A stretch of DNA of 64,000 nucleotides from contig DUQH01000035.1 in NCBI GenBank assembly GCA_012837895.1, positions 62,001 to 126,000 on the forward strand, written 5' to 3'. Numbering within the stretch: the first letter of the stretch is position 1; each line of letters opens with the position of its first letter. The translations under genes were made by a program, and so were the position numbers. The notes under the pieces are model-generated. The model was not told the DNA's origin. It was given only the letters and a program-made list of their open reading frames with translations, and searched no databases. Of this stretch, positions 8,075-15,653 are shown piece after piece. The stretch comes from Candidatus Fermentithermobacillaceae bacterium. GTDB lineage: Bacteria > Bacillota > Sulfobacillia > Fermentithermobacillales > Fermentithermobacillaceae.

Positions 8075-8596
8075 TTACCATTTGGTGCGTTCCACAACAG
8101 ATGACTCTGCTATGACAATCAGTGTTACCCCGCTTTCGAGGCCAGGTATCCATCTTAGGAAATATGTGTCCACCACCACGTATGCCTCTACAATAACAGC
8201 CGGCGCGTCTCTGGCCGAGTTGTCAACAGTTGCAGTCACTTTAACATCGCGGAACAGGTTCTCCATACCCCACAGGTTATCTCTTGTATACTCAATAGCT
8301 TTTGCCCTGCCCCTCTCTTCGTCTATGAACACAATTCCTTGTGCCAGCAAGTCCCAGTCAAGTTCCTGACATCCGGCAAGAGCACCCAAGTCGCAAGCAG
8401 CTTGGGCTAACCGCCTTGCTGCGAATATCACGCCCAAGTCTGCAACAATCCCAAGGCTCAGAACCGCTACCGGCAGAAACAGGGCGACCAAGGCGATTAC
8501 TGCGCCCTTCTCGGAACTCAACCCAGATAAACTTCGTGCGAACCAGGAACGTCCTTGCTTCTCCAGCCTGTATTCCCTACCTGGGGACAAACTCAC
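8075..8596 (-). CDS. TadG-like pilus assembly protein
   Basis: 173 residues. The stretch SSEKGAVIALVALFLPVAVL, with a single hydrophobic segment (about 28-52) after a Glu-Lys-Gly, is the N-terminal Tad/TadG-like anchor. A predicted extracytoplasmic domain follows, with RRLAQAACDLGALAG just after the membrane. TadG/TadE proteins are pseudopilin-like parts of the Tad/Flp secretion machine. Last gene of the operon, overlapping tadE by 20 bases. GTG at 8596 sits on the GGAG, so TTG at 8590 (5 bases after it) may be the true start. Confidence 0.72.
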   Translation of the reverse strand: MSLSPGREYRLEKQGRSWFARSLSGLSSEKGAVIALVALFLPVAVLSLGIVADLGVIFAARRLAQAACDLGALAGCQELDWDLLAQGIVFIDEERGRAKAIEYTRDNLWGMENLFRDVKVTATVDNSARDAPAVIVEAYVVVDTYFLRWIPGLESGVTLIVIAESSVVERTKW

Positions 8597-9014
8597 TCCG
8601 GGTCACCGCCTTTGCTCTTAGGGTGACTCTGCTTCCGGCAATAACCGAAACTACAGGCGACTTCACGCGGTAATCATAAGATAGGGTCACGTTTATGTCT
8701 GTACCGTATATAGCTTGCTTGGGAAACACGATCAGTTCTAAGAGATCCGGTTCAAGCCCTGTGGATTCAATCACCGAATCAGCCCGCTGTATTGCGTTCC
8801 CTACAAAACCTCCCTCAACTGCACAGATCCTTGCTATCTCCCTGGCAGCTGACGCAAGCGCCAGCTTTGCGTTAAGTACCAGTCCCAGTTCAAGTATGGC
8901 AAACAAGACTAGAATAAGGGTGAACAAGACCAGTACAAACTCTGCAATCGCTTGTCCCGATTCATCACTGGTTGCATATATTACGTTACGTCTCGATCCT
9001 TTCAAACCGGCCAC
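8577..9014 (-). CDS. TadE-like pilus assembly protein
   Basis: 145 residues. SGQAIAEFVLVLFTLILVLF is the classic TadE signature (Gly-Gln-Ala-x-x-Glu-Phe before a hydrophobic helix), a prepilin-peptidase-type N-terminus with the +5 Glu. The remaining ~95 residues should be outside the membrane and include RVTLRAKAVT near the end. Acts as a minor pseudopilin in Tad systems. GTG start with GGAGGTG 5-6 bases upstream. Confidence 0.8.
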   Translation of the reverse strand: MAGLKGSRRNVIYATSDESGQAIAEFVLVLFTLILVLFAILELGLVLNAKLALASAAREIARICAVEGGFVGNAIQRADSVIESTGLEPDLLELIVFPKQAIYGTDINVTLSYDYRVKSPVVSVIAGSRVTLRAKAVTRSEFVPR

Positions 9015-9035
9015 TTGGGCACCTCCGGTTCAAGG

Positions 9036-9257
9036 TCATTGGGTGGGGGCACCTTCGATCCCTCTAATTATCTGATCCAGCTTGAGTTTGAGTGCATCAG
9101 TCAGCTCCCCCAAGATCGCAATCAGCGCAACCACTACAACTGCCAGCAATATTGCATATTCGGCGATAGTGGCGCCCCGCTCTTCGCTGAAGAAGCTTTT
9201 GAGCCAGTCTGCAGCCTTTTTTCTAAGAATTAGTGCTCTTACGTATATCTCCAACAC
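9036..9257 (-). CDS. flp: Flp-type IVb pilin
   Basis: Major pilin candidate of 73 residues: a short basic leader, then SEERGATIAEYAILLAV. Prepilin peptidase would cut after Gly28, leaving Ala-Thr-Ile-Ala-Glu with Glu at +5 and the Glu-Tyr pair typical of Flp pilins, then one hydrophobic helix and a short tail. I chose GTG 9257 because CGGGGAG lies 9 bases upstream; the ATG at 9350 in the same frame has no ribosome site and would give an unusually long leader. No prepilin peptidase gene is in the operon. Confidence 0.85.
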   Translation of the reverse strand: MLEIYVRALILRKKAADWLKSFFSEERGATIAEYAILLAVVVVALIAILGELTDALKLKLDQIIRGIEGAPTQ

Positions 9258-9343
9258 GGTTATCCACTCCCCGCTTACATGCTCATTTGACTGAAATCCC
9301 GACATATGGGATGTATCTGTGCCTGGCATACCGTTGAGCTGAG

Positions 9344-9961
9344 TTACCATCCGGTTGCTATAAACGAAAGCACATGAGGCATTACTGAAATAATCAACAC
9401 GGGAGGTAACAGGAAGATAACAGTGATAACAGACAGTTTGACCGGAAGCGAATTGATCTTGCCTTCAAAACGCTGCTTTTCAATGGTGTAATATTCAGCC
9501 GCCAAAGCTTCAAGTACGTTGGAAACAGGCGTACCAAGCACTTCAGCCTGGGTAAGGGTAGCTCTCAGCCGTCTCGCGGCGCCAATGCCCTCTTCCTCTA
9601 TTGCAGACAAGGCTGCAGGCAGTGACATCCCGCTGTGTATCCTAACAACCACTTTTTCAAGGAATTCCCTCAAAGGTCCATACGTCTTGCCCGCACATAT
9701 CTCGAACGCATGCAGAACGTCCATGCCCGCTGATACCGCCACAGCCATACCTTCAAGCAGGGTAGGCCATTGGGCCAAAATAGCTTCTTCGCTGCTTCTG
9801 CGTTTAGAATTCCTGACAAGCAAGTGTAACAGGGCATCACTTGCATACCTCAATCTTGCAGGTCTGTCTGCCAGACGGCTGTGTTTGCGGTAGAGCGTCA
9901 ATCCGCCCACCACCCATGCGGATATACCTAAACTTCCGGCAATAAGCTGGATATCCCTCAC
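9344..9961 (-). CDS. tadC: Tad pilus inner-membrane platform protein TadC
   Basis: 205 residues: one N-terminal membrane segment, then a type II secretion F-like cytoplasmic domain (AVSAGMDVLHAFEICAG; HSGMSLPAALSAIEE; AEVLGTPVSNVLEALA), and a C-terminal hydrophobic hairpin rich in Ile/Leu/Pro. With TadB it forms the membrane platform that CpaF drives. Its GTG overlaps the tadB stop as GTGA, so translation is probably coupled. Shorter than typical TadC (~300). Confidence 0.8.
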   Translation of the reverse strand: MRDIQLIAGSLGISAWVVGGLTLYRKHSRLADRPARLRYASDALLHLLVRNSKRRSSEEAILAQWPTLLEGMAVAVSAGMDVLHAFEICAGKTYGPLREFLEKVVVRIHSGMSLPAALSAIEEEGIGAARRLRATLTQAEVLGTPVSNVLEALAAEYYTIEKQRFEGKINSLPVKLSVITVIFLLPPVLIISVMPHVLSFIATGW

Positions 9962-10716
9962 GAAGCCTTCCTACCCCTTTCAGCTTTCATCTGATACCTT
10001 GTATGGGCGGAAACAGGAAACACAGAGCGCAAAGACATCCTTATCAAAGCCCCTCCTAGCGCCCAAAGCACGACCCCTGCGATAATCAGGAGTCTGCCTT
10101 CTTGCGAAGCTGCAAAAGTTCTAATCAAGTTTGGATCGTGCTGCAACATGAAAAGCCCGATGAGCCACGGTAGAGCCAAGAGGAGCCACGAGGTGATTCT
10201 TGCTTCTGACAGCCTGGCATCAACTTCACCCCGGAACACACGTCTTCTTCTCAGTATTTCAAAGGCCCGCCATAGCAGACTCCCGGTATCGCCACCGCTT
10301 ATTGAACCGATTTCCAGGATGGCGGCTATCATGGACAATTCACCGTCCCCGTCAGCCACCATCTCCATGGCTTTTGTGATGGGTACTCCCGTTTCATAAA
10401 ACTTATAGGCCTTAGCAAGCTTCTTATGTGCACTGGATGTGCCATCCTGGGAAACTGAGCGGATAGCTTGCACCAGGGTATTTCCTGCGCGCACCTGAAA
10501 AGCCAGGTCTGAGCATATCTCATCCCATGGAATATCCCTGGGTTTCCGGCACCAGGCGCGCTTTCTGAGGCCTGTCAGGAGTGCAGCAGTTCCTCGTACA
10601 CCATCTTCATGCTTTTGTCCGAGTGCCCGTGGCAATCCCCACACCGGTGCCTTTTGCAGGTCCAGCCCGATCAAAGCCGCGGTAACGCCAAGGCCAATCG
10701 AAAACAGGAGTTTCAC
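9958..10716 (-). CDS. tadB: Tad pilus inner-membrane platform protein TadB
   Basis: 252 residues from GTG 10716, which overlaps the cpaF stop as GTGA and has GAGGAGGGAG just upstream. T2SS-F domain (AFQVRAGNTLVQAIRSVS; YETGVPITKAMEMVADG; IGSISGGDTGSLL) with an N-terminal and two C-terminal hydrophobic segments. Partner of TadC in the assembly platform. A start 20 codons further upstream is possible but lacks a ribosome site. Confidence 0.82.
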   Translation of the reverse strand: MKLLFSIGLGVTAALIGLDLQKAPVWGLPRALGQKHEDGVRGTAALLTGLRKRAWCRKPRDIPWDEICSDLAFQVRAGNTLVQAIRSVSQDGTSSAHKKLAKAYKFYETGVPITKAMEMVADGDGELSMIAAILEIGSISGGDTGSLLWRAFEILRRRRVFRGEVDARLSEARITSWLLLALPWLIGLFMLQHDPNLIRTFAASQEGRLLIIAGVVLWALGGALIRMSLRSVFPVSAHTRYQMKAERGRKAS

Positions 10717-12002
10717 GTTACTCCCTCCTCGACCAGGGCCTGACAACGCCCCTCGCCCACTTTCTCCGCGAACCACGATGGAAAATCCAAACGCAGCCCG
10801 TCTCCCCGGCGGTACACATGGAAGTGGGTAAGACCTTTCCCGGGCTTATTGCCCACTAATGAAACCCCTGATACCACCCTGTGTCCGGCTGAGGTTTTCT
10901 CCAGATGTACAATCACGTCAACCCCTATGCCAATCCACGACCTGAGTATATCCACAGGCACGCCTTCTTCTGCCATCAGTGCCATGCCTACCATCCTTTC
11001 CAGGCAATCTGCAGCAGAATTTGCGTGGACGGTTGAAAGACAGCCTTCATGCCCGGTGTTGCAAGCCGAAATCAAGTCGAAGGTTTCCTTGCCCCTGCAT
11101 TCCCCTATGATGAGCCTGTCCGGCCTCATCCGCAAGGCATTTCTCAGAAGATCCCTTATAGATACTTCCCCTTTGCCCTCCATGTTCTTGGGGCGGGCTT
11201 CAAGGTACACAACATGATGGTCAGGAATTCTTATCTCGGCCGAGTCTTCTATCACTATGATGCGTTCGTCCGGCGAAGCAGCATTGGCTAAAACGTTCAG
11301 AGTCGTGGTTTTTCCGCTTCCTGAACCGCCTGACACCACAATATCAAGTTTGGCCTTAACGCAATTCTTCAAGAAACTCGCAGCGCCTGGTTCAAGCGTC
11401 CTGCCTTCTACGAGCTGGGACAACTCAGTATAGCGCCGGGGGAAGCGCCTGATCGTAAGCACAGGCCCATTCAAAGCAAGAGGCGGGATTATTGCATTTA
11501 CCCTGGATCCGTCCGGTAGCCTGGCATCTACATACGGCATGGAGACATCTACCCTTCTTCCTGCGCTTTGGACAATCCGGTTTATGATGTCCAAGAGGTG
11601 CCTGTCGTTTTGGAATTTGATTGGCGTAGCTGCCAACATCCCATGCTTTTCTACAAACACCTCCTGGGGACCGTTAACCATGATTTCGGTTACTGATTCA
11701 TCATCCAGCAACTCATCAAGCGGCCCCAGGCCGCAAATCTCCTGAGCTATGCGCTCAGCCAGGTCTTGCCTGGTGAGCTTTGGAACATACAGTTCCGAAG
11801 AGATGATTACGTTGGATATCAAGGTAACGACTTCTCTTCGCTTGTCCCGCGACATCCTGGCTTCTATGATAAGGTCTGGGTAATTCTCCAACATTTTCTC
11901 CCTGACCTCCTGGGTCACGTCTTCAAAGCACATTTCCCTGGCCTCGCTGTGGGTGGACAACAATCCGTATGGCTCTCGCTCAAGCTTGTCAAGGATACTC
12001 AC
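10713..12002 (-). CDS. cpaF: Tad pilus assembly ATPase CpaF/TadA
   Basis: Hexameric type II/IV secretion ATPase that powers pilus assembly from the cytoplasmic face. 429 residues from GTG 12002, which overlaps the cpaE stop as GTGA; AAGGAGGT lies 10 bases upstream. Visible motifs are CGLGPLDELLDDESVTEIMVN (the CpaF N-domain), Walker A SGGSGSGKTT (about 224-233), the Asp box, GECRGKETFDLI (Walker B region) and the His box HEGCLSTVHANS. The conserved catalytic motifs appear intact. Confidence 0.93.
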   Translation of the reverse strand: MSILDKLEREPYGLLSTHSEAREMCFEDVTQEVREKMLENYPDLIIEARMSRDKRREVVTLISNVIISSELYVPKLTRQDLAERIAQEICGLGPLDELLDDESVTEIMVNGPQEVFVEKHGMLAATPIKFQNDRHLLDIINRIVQSAGRRVDVSMPYVDARLPDGSRVNAIIPPLALNGPVLTIRRFPRRYTELSQLVEGRTLEPGAASFLKNCVKAKLDIVVSGGSGSGKTTTLNVLANAASPDERIIVIEDSAEIRIPDHHVVYLEARPKNMEGKGEVSIRDLLRNALRMRPDRLIIGECRGKETFDLISACNTGHEGCLSTVHANSAADCLERMVGMALMAEEGVPVDILRSWIGIGVDVIVHLEKTSAGHRVVSGVSLVGNKPGKGLTHFHVYRRGDGLRLDFPSWFAEKVGEGRCQALVEEGVT

Positions 12003-13084
12003 CAAAAGCGGAACCTCCTTGTTTTGTTTTGTCTCTTCTCCATGTCTGGCAGCGGTAAACCGGGGGATACTTCCGACAACAGTCTCCATATCGATGAAGC
12101 GATTTCAGTTTTCCCGGACAGCACAACCGGCCTCCCCTGGAACAATGACCTTTCAACGGTCTTCCGGTCATCAGGTACTACTGAGGCCAGTCTCTTCTCA
12201 AGATACTCCTCGACTTTGCGCTCAGATAAGGGAGCATCTTTTGAATCCCTATTAAGGATCACGTGTACTGAGCTATCCTGAATGCCAAGCTTCCGGAATA
12301 TGTCAAGGGCTACCTTGCCCTGCTTCAAAGCGCATACATCCTGGGTAATCACGAGCACTATGGCTGAGGCTGCGTCGACAGCTTCACCTAACAGGTCACT
12401 GGTTATATCAGGAGCAGTATCGATGTACACAAGCCCCCATCTCCGTGCCGCAAGGGAGAGCAACTGCTTTACATGTTCAACTCCGATCAGGGCGGAGAGT
12501 TCAGGTCTTCTCGGGCCGCAGATCACGTTAAGGCGCGAAGGGGCGTATTTCTGGGTGTAACGGTCCAACCCGTCAGGCCTTAACCTTGGCAGTTCTGGCA
12601 GCATTTCGATGATAGTTGGACCGTCTGAAAGGTCCAAGTAGGTGGCGACGTCCCCGGAATACACATCCAGATCTATGAGTACTGCCTTCCCTTGGGTGGC
12701 CATTGCTGCAGCACACGCCAGGTTAGCTGATATGAAGGTCTTGCCCACACCGCCTTTAGGGCTCCATACCACTACTGTTTGTGAAGTTATTACGCTAGTG
12801 GCCGGTGTGTGTGCCCTGTTCCGGGGTACGCTTTCCCCTAGAACGGTTACGGCAACATGAGGAAACGCCTTTCTGAACCGTGCGATCCACTCATCCAGGG
12901 ATTCCCCACGCGGCGATAGCTGCCTGTCGACGACGATTTCGTCAACGTTAGTTTCTGCTGCCACGTACTCGACCAGGGCCGGGTCTTTGAGAACACCCAC
13001 TATCCTTGCATCAGGCTTTTCACGTCTGATCGCTTGTTCACAACGGGAATCACCCGCAATCAATACCGAAGTTCTTTGAGTCAT
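11999..13084 (-). CDS. cpaE: Tad pilus MinD/ParA-like ATPase CpaE/TadZ
   Basis: 361 residues from ATG 13084, which overlaps the cpaB stop as ATGA. The N-terminal ~95 residues form a receiver-like domain (VLIAGDSRCEQAI ... VDEIVVDRQLS). A MinD/ParA ATPase follows, with deviant Walker A KGGVGKT (110-116), VLIDLDVYSGDV and YIDTAPDITSDLL. TadZ/CpaE positions the pilus machine in the cell and recruits CpaF. A TTG 4 codons upstream lies too close to the GGAGG. Confidence 0.87.
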   Translation of the reverse strand: MTQRTSVLIAGDSRCEQAIRREKPDARIVGVLKDPALVEYVAAETNVDEIVVDRQLSPRGESLDEWIARFRKAFPHVAVTVLGESVPRNRAHTPATSVITSQTVVVWSPKGGVGKTFISANLACAAAMATQGKAVLIDLDVYSGDVATYLDLSDGPTIIEMLPELPRLRPDGLDRYTQKYAPSRLNVICGPRRPELSALIGVEHVKQLLSLAARRWGLVYIDTAPDITSDLLGEAVDAASAIVLVITQDVCALKQGKVALDIFRKLGIQDSSVHVILNRDSKDAPLSERKVEEYLEKRLASVVPDDRKTVERSLFQGRPVVLSGKTEIASSIWRLLSEVSPGLPLPDMEKRQNKTRRFRFW

Positions 13085-13761
13085 TTCCCAGGCCAAACCT
13101 CCGAATCAACCGGTATACCGTTCCCTGCCGTGTTCCAAGGCACCAGAGCCAGATAAATGCTGCCTGTTTCCAAGTAGTGAGCGATCTCTGCGCATGTCCC
13201 TGGCGGTGCTGCGATTACAACGCCTTTGAACTCACCTGATTTGTCATGGATGACCCTGACTACCCTGGCTCTGCCCATAACGGTGACAGCACCGTGAAGA
13301 TCACCGGGTTGGTAAACACTTGCGCCCCTGGCAGACCAGATGAGATCTACCCTGTCTCCTGGATTGATTAAGCCGCCTACTGCGCGGGAGGCGTCGGCAG
13401 GTACGAATATTGCACGTTCTTCGACGGGAATTTCAATGGATATGCCAGGCTGACTTCGTGAAGACATGACATGGCCTGCCAAGACGATTTGGCCTGCAAA
13501 CAGTGGGCAAATTGTGTAGTTTCCTATCAAATCTTCTGGTTTGCGGATACTCTCTGGATGTATGCCCTTCAGAGGTAGGTCGACAACCTTTATGTCTGAT
13601 ACAGAGATCTTCTGGTATGGCTCCAAGTGGCGGCTGGCCACAACCACCTTTTCCGTCTTTACGTAGACCGAAAGCAGTTTGTAAGATAAGGCGAACACTG
13701 AGAGTCCCAAGACAAGGGCAATCAGCAATGGTTTGTGCCTTCTTGCCAGTGATTTCAGCAG
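13081..13761 (-). CDS. cpaB: Flp pilus assembly protein CpaB/RcpC (SAF domain)
   Basis: One N-terminal membrane helix (LLIALVLGLSVFALSY), then a SAF domain (VVVASRHLEPYQKISVSDIKVVDL, with the next segment up to FAGQIVLAGHV) and an RcpC/CpaB C-terminal part (PGDRVDLIW). First gene of the Tad operon. Start is unusual: AAGGAGGT (13775-13768) is 6 bases before CTG 13761, which opens the frame LLKSLARRHKPLLIALVLG. The first standard start codon in frame is TTG 13728, inside the membrane helix, without a ribosome site and without the basic flank. I therefore chose CTG, giving 226 residues; TTG gives 215. Confidence 0.82.
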   Translation of the reverse strand: MLKSLARRHKPLLIALVLGLSVFALSYKLLSVYVKTEKVVVASRHLEPYQKISVSDIKVVDLPLKGIHPESIRKPEDLIGNYTICPLFAGQIVLAGHVMSSRSQPGISIEIPVEERAIFVPADASRAVGGLINPGDRVDLIWSARGASVYQPGDLHGAVTVMGRARVVRVIHDKSGEFKGVVIAAPPGTCAEIAHYLETGSIYLALVPWNTAGNGIPVDSEVWPGK

Positions 13762-13779
13762 ACAACTACCTCCTTATGC

Positions 13780-13918
13780 GTGGCCGTACCAGGTCATTGG
13801 GTCGACTGCGAAGGGCGCCGGTGGCGACAGTTTTTGGGCATCGCCGGAATGCCGTATGTGTGCTGCAAGGTCCCCCCTTTCTCCGGCAGAGATAGTACTG
13901 ATGACCCGGCACGGCCAC
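13780..13918 (-). promoter_or_regulatory. Structured leader RNA closed by an 18-bp stem, before cpaB
   Basis: In the minus-strand transcript GUGGCCGUGCCGGGUCAU (13918-13901) pairs along all 18 positions (16 Watson-Crick, 2 G-U) with AUGACCUGGUACGGCCAC (13797-13780). The stem encloses ~103 nt that can form further hairpins: GCCGGA with UCCGGC, and GGCGA with UCGCC. It begins ~25 nt after the promoter -10 and ends 4 nt before the cpaB Shine-Dalgarno. It does not match any riboswitch consensus I know. A small mobile element with terminal inverted repeats is the alternative; no clear target duplication flanks it. Confidence 0.6.
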
Positions 13919-13942
13919 TTACAAGTATTGCCAGGCTCTTCC

Positions 13943-13971
13943 AGAATATAACATATTTCCCATCCTGTCAA
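13943..13971 (-). promoter_or_regulatory. Sigma-A promoter of the Tad pilus operon
   Basis: TTGACA (13971-13966), 17 bases, TATTCT (13948-13943). The -35 is perfect and the -10 matches 4 of 6. It lies ~180 bases before cpaB, leaving a long leader. The 299 bases between cpaB and the SLH gene hold only this promoter, the leader and the SLH gene's own upstream region. Confidence 0.7.
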
Positions 13972-14060
13972 CACTTTCCAGAAATATTTCCATGAACAGA
14001 CATCCGTGTAAAAATATGATATATTCTTGGTGCCGGTGGCGAAATGGAGGTTCTGTATCA

Positions 14061-15653
14061 ATGGAAAATCCGTTGCCGCTACCTGTTTGGTTCAAAGCAG
14101 TATTGTGTTTTTGCTTTAGTCTGGTCCTTGCAGCTGCAATGCCCGCTTCAAAGGCGAGGTGTGAAGGTGATCCATGGTACAGTGACTTAAGGGGCCACTG
14201 GGCCGAGGAGATCATATATGTCTTGTGGCAGGAAGGTGTCACCGACGGATTCCTGTACACATGGGGCGGCAAGACCACCCCGTATTTTTTCCCCGACTCA
14301 GATTGCACAAGGGCTCAACTCACTGTACTGCTTGCAAAGGTATTCGGGCTTACGCCCATTTCTCCTGCGTCGCCCTCATATCCCGACGTGCCCAAATCAT
14401 ACACTATTTACCCGGGCAAACCTGCATGGAGATGGATAGAAGCAGCGCTTGCTGCAGGTTTATCTTCGGTCCCGGCAGGCCACTATTTCTACCCTGACAA
14501 CGGAATATCCAGGCAGGACGCGGTAGATCTGCTCATCCGTTGCCTGGACTTGTACGAATATGCCTTATCCATGCCTGATAGTGAAGTACGCAGCTTGCTT
14601 CAAGCTTTTGGCGACGGGATGAACACAAGGCATGACAGGCGGCATTCAATGGCCTGCGCCATAAAGTTCGGAATAATCCAAGGATACGACGACAGGACGA
14701 TACGTCCTGAAACCGTGCTCTTGCGTTGCCAGGCTGCGGCTATTGTGTACCGGTCGTGTCTTATACGGGCAACTGCAAGCCTAGATGTGTTCTCGCCGGA
14801 CGGTGACGACGTAGACGACACTGTAAAATTCAGCCTGATCTATCTCAAGAACCGCGGCATATCTAACTGGAACATGGCGGTTGAAGATGCTTCAGGCGGC
14901 ATAGTACGCACTTTCAATCCTGGCGGCAACCCTGGCTCGCCCCCAGCCACGATTACATGGGACGGGACCAATGCCCAGGGCAAAACCGTTCCTGCAGGAA
15001 AGTATTACTACCAGGCATGGGTGAGAGACAGGAACAACAGGCAGTTCTTTTCAGTGAAAAAGCCTTTGGATGTGGAGATACATTCCCTCAGCGGTTCGGT
15101 TAGCCCGGCGTCCTGCCGGGATGACCAGACGCTGACGGTAAAAGCTTACACCACTCCTTCTGCCAAGAGTGTAACGGCGTCTTTTGCTGACGGCAACACA
15201 AGGCATCTCAGCCCGTCGTCTGACCGGCGAACTTGGACTCTGCAACTTGTAATGGGCCCTTTCTTGCCTGCAGGACCCCAGCAAGTGTCGTTGACGGCGG
15301 AATTCGCCAAGGTGAGCAGGCAGATTACACTTAGCTTCACCAGGGTAGAGAACCTGTGGATATCGCCTTCTCTTTCTCCCAACCCGGCCGGACCTGGCCA
15401 GATTCTTGAGGCCTTGTGCGTAGCATCATCAAATGTGGGGGCGGTCACAGCAAGCTTGTTTGGGAGCGTGATCAATCTCTCGAAATCAGGCGGACTTTGG
15501 CAGGGGATTTCAGCGGTGCCCTTGGAATGCTCCCAAGGCGATTACCCGGTAGTTTTCACAGGGTATTCCGGCAACCGTCAAGTCTCAGCCACTATCTATC
15601 TCACAGTAGACACCAGCAAGCTTGCCAAGCTGGTTTTCACCCTTACACGTTAA
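14061..15653 (+). CDS. Secreted S-layer-homology protein with FlgD-like Ig domain
   Basis: 530 residues from ATG 14061 (TGGAGG 10 bases upstream); a signal peptide covers about residues 1-33. Two or three SLH-type repeats follow (YSDLRGHWAEEIIYVLWQEG; YPDVPKSYTIYPGKPAWRWIEAA; MACAIKFGIIQGYDDRTIRP), which bind cell-wall polymer. Then comes a FlgD-type Ig-like domain (about 250-340; VFSPDGDDVDDTVKFS ... WDGTNAQGKTVPAGKYYY) and two more beta-rich domains. No catalytic motif is seen, so it is likely a cell-surface structural or adhesive protein. It is divergent from the Tad operon, so the two surface systems may be linked, which is inference. Confidence 0.8.
   Translation: MENPLPLPVWFKAVLCFCFSLVLAAAMPASKARCEGDPWYSDLRGHWAEEIIYVLWQEGVTDGFLYTWGGKTTPYFFPDSDCTRAQLTVLLAKVFGLTPISPASPSYPDVPKSYTIYPGKPAWRWIEAALAAGLSSVPAGHYFYPDNGISRQDAVDLLIRCLDLYEYALSMPDSEVRSLLQAFGDGMNTRHDRRHSMACAIKFGIIQGYDDRTIRPETVLLRCQAAAIVYRSCLIRATASLDVFSPDGDDVDDTVKFSLIYLKNRGISNWNMAVEDASGGIVRTFNPGGNPGSPPATITWDGTNAQGKTVPAGKYYYQAWVRDRNNRQFFSVKKPLDVEIHSLSGSVSPASCRDDQTLTVKAYTTPSAKSVTASFADGNTRHLSPSSDRRTWTLQLVMGPFLPAGPQQVSLTAEFAKVSRQITLSFTRVENLWISPSLSPNPAGPGQILEALCVASSNVGAVTASLFGSVINLSKSGGLWQGISAVPLECSQGDYPVVFTGYSGNRQVSATIYLTVDTSKLAKLVFTLTR

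Follow-up and report, generated by a model that had tools for sequence, protein, structure and literature searches.

A conserved structured leader RNA of the tad pilus operon in Candidatus Fermentithermobacillaceae and its complementarity to the mRNA of a divergent SLH-domain gene

Genomic Context of the tad Leader

The window analyzed here is a 64,000-nucleotide stretch of a Candidatus Fermentithermobacillaceae genome (contig DUQH01000035.1, positions 62,001 to 126,000). It carries a tad pilus operon and, in divergent orientation, a gene encoding a surface protein with SLH and FlgD-Ig domains (Table 1). Homologues of this SLH gene are found in 17 of 17 genomes of the order. Below, G-labels stand for genomes and L-labels for loci; families and genera are designated by the f and g numbers that the search assigned to them. 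The transcript starts are predictions: the tad mRNA would begin near 13936, downstream of a sigma-A-like promoter whose TTGACA box is conserved in the family, and the SLH mRNA near 14032, as its predicted -10 box ends at 14025. The tad promoter lies on the same strand as the operon, which supports the minus strand being the transcribed one, as the first-pass annotation of this DNA had assumed.

Among ATG, GTG and TTG codons, the in-frame start listed for cpaB is the TTG at 13728, where automatic annotation would place the start. Judged by its fit to the Shine-Dalgarno sequence (SD) and its conservation in the genus, the CTG further upstream is the probable start. A CTG-AAA/AGA about 10 nt after GGAGG is conserved (13756-13761 on the minus strand, also at L012-L015 and L019). 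The genomes of g1 and g3 have no in-frame ATG, GTG or TTG that suits the cpaB SD, and g4 has a TTG at the position of the CTG. The SLH genes of L031 and L095 have apparent CTG starts as well.

Two further motifs are found around the promoters. A TGGCAAT/TGGAAAT...CTGG-like motif ahead of the tad -35 box (13974-13999, minus strand) resembles hairpin P0, located just after the -10 box, and similar TGGCA...CCA palindromes lie near the tad or SLH transcript starts in other families of the class (L029, L034, L095, L102, L112, L116). Motifs of this type are possibly operators. The motif TTCGACA/TGTCGAA, recurrent upstream of tad and SLH promoters in several families of the class (L029-L032, L034-L036, L061, L118), looks like a regulator site.

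Table 1. Features of the tad/SLH locus, in positions of the window
Feature	Position	Strand	Basis
Rest of tad operon: ParA-like CpaE, CpaF ATPase, TadB, TadC, Flp pilin, TadE	8577-13096	minus	Pfam
cpaB (RcpC/SAF domains), probable CTG start at 13756-13758	13084-13761	minus	Pfam RcpC 2.2e-9, SAF 3e-8
cpaB SD, AAGGAGG	13769-13775	minus	sequence
P1 3' strand, AUGACCUGGUACGGCCAC	13780-13797	minus	closing stem
Ultra-conserved 17-nt core, CACCGGCGCCCUUCGCA	13807-13823	minus	14/14 family genomes
Core part complementary to SLH mRNA 5' end, CGCCACCGGCGCC	13814-13826	minus	duplex with SLH 5' segment
P4 hairpin GGCA...UGCC, loop containing P2 3' strand	13837-13854	minus	GGUA/UACC in G007
Purine-rich, SD-like segment in P2 loop, GAGAAAGGGGGGA	13871-13883	minus	recurs in f1, f2 and f16 leaders
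P2 5' strand UGCCGGA, partner 13842-13849	13882-13888	minus	stem read by eye
P1 5' strand, GUGGCCGUGCCGGGUCAU	13901-13918	minus	closing stem
P0 5' hairpin, CUGGCAA...UUGNNAG	13918-13934	minus	14-leader alignment
Sigma-A-like tad promoter, TTGACA-17-TATTCT	13943-13971	minus	consensus scan, 10/12 matches
SLH mRNA 5' segment complementary to core, GGUGCCGGUGGCG, transcript from about 14032	14029-14041	plus	duplex -30.8 kcal/mol, p 0.004 versus shuffles
SLH gene SD (GGAGG) and ATG	14046-14063	plus	sequence
Divergent SLH-domain/FlgD-Ig surface protein gene	14061-15653	plus	Pfam SLH 7.6e-10, FlgD_ig 1.3e-8

Fold of the Leader

The leader is organized, from 5' to 3', as P0, the 5' strand of P1, P2, P4, an A-rich linker, the core and the 3' strand of P1. 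It sits at the predicted 5' end of the transcript and, in this genome, starts no more than about 15 nt from the promoter. The closing stem P1 consists of 18 contiguous pairs, 16 Watson-Crick and 2 G-U in the minus-strand RNA. It encloses 103 nt (13798-13900) and ends 4 nt before AAGGAGG. The first-pass annotation had described this leader of about 160 nt and its uninterrupted stem correctly, and had rightly remarked that the two G-U pairs favour the minus-strand RNA. The RNAfold minimum free energy of the 161-nt leader is -66.3 kcal/mol; none of 200 dinucleotide shuffles was as stable (mean -51.0, sd 4.0, z = -3.8). No terminator was seen in the sequence at the 3' end of the leader.

P2, which is GCCGGA/UCCGGC in the genus of this genome and AACCGA/UCGGUU in g4, was read by eye because the aligner displaces one of its strands by a single base. 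The purine-rich segment in its loop has the consensus GAAAGGRGG. It reads GAAAGGAGGUGAUC in G005 (L024) and GAAAGGAGG in the others (L031 and L032 among the loci noted), an extended complement of the 16S 3' end, and no conserved start codon or reading frame follows it. P4 changes from GGCA/UGCC to GGUA/UACC in G007, and together with P2 it may form a pseudoknot. The core is identical in 14 of 14 family genomes, except for a C/T difference at one site. It may fold as GCG-CCCUU-CGC at 13808-13818 (family form GYG-CCCUU-CRC), and its CCCUU loop could contact the AAGG of the purine-rich segment.

A leader peptide or attenuator was rejected. When frames are counted from the core, none contains a start codon in every species, and G007 lacks one whichever frame is read. 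The PPAPFA-like or ATGALR-like frames are not even shared by the species of a single genus.

Conservation and Spread

The leader is present in a single copy in its own genome, and four relatives of the genus carry leaders of 82-86% identity. According to a contig scan, the relatives belong to Candidatus Fermentithermobacillaceae, class Candidatus Fermentithermobacillia. Each of the 14 family genomes (5 genera) contains one exact copy of CACCGGYGCCCTTCGCA, always upstream of cpaB, and a search for additional copies found none.

In the alignment of the 14 family leaders, 90.4% of the cells of P1 and P0 are paired, and 11 pairs show two-sided changes; the shuffled mean is 4.4, 0 of 500 shuffles reach 11, and slid controls give 1-2 such pairs. 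For P1, compensatory changes occur at 10 of the 16 alignment pairs (0/500 shuffles), and homologous Tad leaders keep the stem. P0 is paired in 88% of the cells, with a two-sided change at one of its six pairs, and may alternatively be a palindromic DNA operator.

The covariance model of the 14 leaders retrieves the family members and two of the three genomes of the sister family f2. In the leaders of f2, f10, f14, f16 and f21, the core is kept, and the closing stem that follows it within a few nucleotides has a rewritten sequence that is again complementary. The core takes the form ACCRGCGCCCU in the cpaB leaders of f10, f14, f16 and f21. The closing stem is CUUGGCGAAGGAG/CUCCUUCGCCAGG in f16 and CCGGCAGGGG/CCCCUGCCGG in f14, and f21 has a long one that ends at CCUUGCCGGUCUUUCCUGAUU. 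Shuffle p-values for single closing stems are modest (0.003-0.06, and 0.22 in G008) because the sequences are GC-rich. To judge from these comparisons, the leader is a conserved structured RNA element whose stems are preserved by compensatory changes, and it is recognizable in six families of an uncultured Firmicute class.

The distance from the core to cpaB ranges from about 60 nt in f1 to about 200 nt or more in f2, and is larger still in L116, which argues for a self-contained module and not an SD switch. The distance from the element to the SD likewise varies, from 4 nt to over 150 nt, so that P1 was rejected as an SD-occluding switch. Nor was a riboswitch expression platform found, whether as a terminator or as SD sequestration.

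The RNA is absent from Rfam. Rfam 15 gave no match at the gathering threshold for the whole window and 20 related loci, and none among 4227 models, c-di-GMP riboswitches included, for the leader at E<=5. A known riboswitch or Rfam family was rejected on these grounds, in line with the first-pass annotation, which had recognized no riboswitch consensus.

The core is missing from the leaders of most other families of the class, and nothing convincing was found outside the class in a phylum sample of 398 genomes and the contig scan, where R1 scores reached at most 15.7 bits without other support. Weak R1 matches in f41 (G078, G093) overlap long ORFs and were taken as chance, and extra weak matches in G014 and G016 lack the core. 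Long, apparently structured cpaB leaders without the core occur in f25 (L030 and L035, about 250 nt before cpaB) and f15 (L029), the latter with a strong closing stem kept and a GGAAAGGGGGGAGG loop. These are perhaps divergent forms of the same RNA. L028 (f41) has no core in its tad leader, yet carries GGGTGCCGGTGGTGG ahead of cpaB, CCACCCCGGTGCCC inside the tad promoter spacer and GGGCGGTGGACGGGAGG in the SLH leader, a rearranged set of related motifs.

Complementarity of the Core to the SLH mRNA

A repeat of the core, in the same orientation on the DNA, occupies the 5' end of the divergent SLH gene about 215 bp upstream. The two transcripts are complementary over 9-14 bp, the SLH segment lying 4-6 nt before the SLH SD. 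From about 14032 on, this segment (GCCGGUGG) is common to g1, g3, g4 and f2, and the preceding bases vary. The complementarity was spotted by eye first and tested afterwards. Family duplexes have energies of -20 to -31 kcal/mol, and comparison with dinucleotide shuffles gives p-values of 0.002-0.07 for 13 of the 14 genomes; these p-values are not independent, and the family-level tests reuse related sequences. G008 (genus g5), without significant complementarity, is the sole exception among the 14, and G011 is not significant with the consensus core and a longer region.

The complementarity recurs in f1, f2, f14, f16 and f21, with p-values of 0.007-0.010 in f2, 0.005 in f14, 0.012 and 0.026 in f16, and twice 0.027 in f21; for f14, f16 and f21 the SLH starts were set by hand. 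It is not significant at L032 (f16, p 0.22) and L121 (f10). Two-sided changes are found in f14, where the core CCACCAGC faces the SLH leader GCUGGUGG, in f21 (L116), with the core end CCCUCG and the SLH leader GAGGGCG, and within genus g2, where a U-A pair alternates with C-G. Own partners pair better than swapped ones (mean -27.6 versus -26.6, permutation p 0.028). Among class genomes that lack the core, 20 SLH leaders include no significant case (smallest p 0.09), and the core-bearing genomes outside the family surpass these coreless genomes (Mann-Whitney p 0.03).

In G014 and G015 of f2, the SLH orthologue and the tad operon are on different contigs. The f2 SLH leader nevertheless retains TATATT-GTGATC-GCCGGTGGC (p 0.010). 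As far as sequences can tell, this retention with unlinked genes is the strongest single point for pairing. G016, also of f2, has an SLH gene with the GCCGGTGGC leader motif, and cpaB, cpaF and other tad genes were not found in its 90% complete assembly.

After opening of both RNAs, the net pairing energy is calculated as -5 to -16 kcal/mol. A plain cofold of the G000 leader with the SLH 5' end places the contact elsewhere. Inverted core copies near tad are not significant, apart from a marginal value in G002. The own genome contains exactly three exact copies of GCCACCGGCRCC, two of them at the tad/SLH locus and the third with no visible ribosome-binding context. The pattern CGGTGG-N-GGAGG shows no genome-wide enrichment. 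A bias of G-U versus C-A between the repeats, assessed by eye, is too slight to discriminate between RNA and DNA models.

The core complementarity to the 5' end of the divergent SLH mRNA is the new element here. The first-pass annotation had missed it, together with the ultra-conserved core, the family extent and the variable SD distance. Its reading as a new cis-regulatory RNA for surface pili holds insofar as the leader is a new structured RNA without an Rfam match, with a stem kept by compensatory changes and a single copy before cpaB. Purely cis action is no longer favoured, given the complementarity to SLH.

Alternative Explanations

Within f1, the CCCUUCGCA half of the core does not vary, though the SLH leaders of g1, g3 and g4 offer no pairing to it. 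The core must thus have another role too, and the leader probably has a second role, cis or tertiary. This conservation without a partner, the constant position of the element at the start of a tad operon, and an invariant core within a helix-rich, pseudoknot-capable fold would suit a cis-acting aptamer or protein-binding RNA of riboswitch-like kind. Its core and P2 loop would bind a small molecule or protein and thereby control stability, translation or elongation of the tad mRNA, the SLH complementarity being secondary. We consider this rather unlikely, as no terminator is seen and the closing stem does not adjoin the SD in other families, leaving no conserved expression platform; such a reading accounts neither for the complementarity to SLH that recurs across families nor for its persistence in f2. 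Also possible in principle, and in our estimate improbable, is that one regulator of the tad and SLH genes uses GCCACCGGC-like sites as its DNA operators, the core being a DNA site that happens to sit in a structured leader. The two complementary sites are direct repeats in DNA, so that the same data equally fit a protein operator; part of the site forms a GCC-N3-GGC dyad, and retention in unlinked f2 genes suits a trans-acting protein. However, g2 and f14 lose the dyad yet keep the complementarity, and the conserved SLH part lies downstream of the predicted transcript start, the upstream part being variable. The covariation of P1, which surrounds the core in several families, calls for a function at the RNA level, and this scaffold around one site tips the balance to RNA over a DNA operator.

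The very stable P1 and 5' hairpin and their location at the 5' end could indicate a structure that only stabilizes or insulates the long operon mRNA, with no specific partner. This is very unlikely, since it leaves unexplained a 17-nt core kept base for base while the stems vary freely. The first-pass annotation had also considered a MITE-like insertion with terminal inverted repeats, on account of the 18-bp inverted repeat around 103 bp. That origin now has next to no probability: each genome has one copy, always before cpaB, and the stem sequences are wholly different between families with the inner core kept.

Comparison with Known Systems

No regulatory RNA for Tad pili was found in the literature searched or in Rfam 15. 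The c-di-GMP-I and -II riboswitches occur before surface-organelle operons. They share with the pilus leader the location of a regulatory RNA in a pilus-operon leader; the latter matches none of their Rfam models, at the gathering threshold or at E up to 5. The C-rich-loop antisense RNAs of Firmicutes are mostly free small RNAs that use a single-stranded, C-rich core to target G-rich sequence close to an SD. The pilus leader has a C-rich core and a G-rich target near the SD as well, but its core is inside an operon leader.

The SAM riboswitches SreA and SreB of Listeria monocytogenes act in trans on the prfA mRNA (PMC8079631). SreA, whose ligand is known, is set free by a terminator, whereas the pilus leader has no Rfam match and no terminator, its partner is usually the divergent neighbour gene, and its trans action is only predicted. 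The SreA-like feature, a cross-species conserved complementarity to the ribosome-binding region of another mRNA, is present in the predicted duplexes, with the exceptions of G008, L121 and L032. UpsM is a small RNA from the 5' leader of the dcw operon of Rhodobacter sphaeroides (PMC5089854). It resembles the pilus leader as a long, structured leader of a conserved operon that is confined to one family and to which trans action is ascribed. UpsM arises through Rho-independent termination and RNase E cleavage (PMC5089854), in contrast to the pilus leader, in whose sequence no terminator is seen. SreA/prfA and UpsM are precedents for a known or supposed trans action of leaders.

Proposed Mechanism

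Conservation, covariation of P1, complementarity and its retention in unlinked genes are observed; from the sequences we infer pairing in the cell, its direction and effect, and any processing of the leader. The 5' end of the tad mRNA is a self-contained structured RNA module of about 160 nt, in which P1 and P2, with its purine-rich loop, frame the invariant core UCGCCACCGGCGCCCUUCGCA and would present it for pairing. The core would pair in trans with the 5' end of the SLH mRNA, at the segment GCCGGUGG(C) directly before the SLH SD. Such pairing would occlude the SLH ribosome site and block 30S loading, and expression of the pilus and the SLH protein would thereby be coupled. An effect in the opposite direction, of the SLH mRNA on the tad leader, is also possible. 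The leader could act while still part of the tad mRNA or once set free from it, RNase III cleavage of P1 being one conceivable route; as no terminator follows it, a free small RNA would need processing. We regard the chances as evenly balanced that the core works by trans RNA-RNA pairing between the pilus leader and the SLH mRNA.

More tentatively, and with somewhat less confidence, the two may represent a conserved class of riboregulator made of two fitting RNA halves, a pilus leader and the 5' end of a surface-layer mRNA, whose trans pairing would wire two surface systems by RNA alone and would be kept after separation of the genes. The pairing partner can be read from the sequence, which makes the proposal directly testable. 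By such RNA pairing, the two surface systems, pili and SLH protein, may regulate each other. Real pairing would make this one of the rare examples in which the leaders of two mRNAs tie the production of pili to a surface-layer protein.
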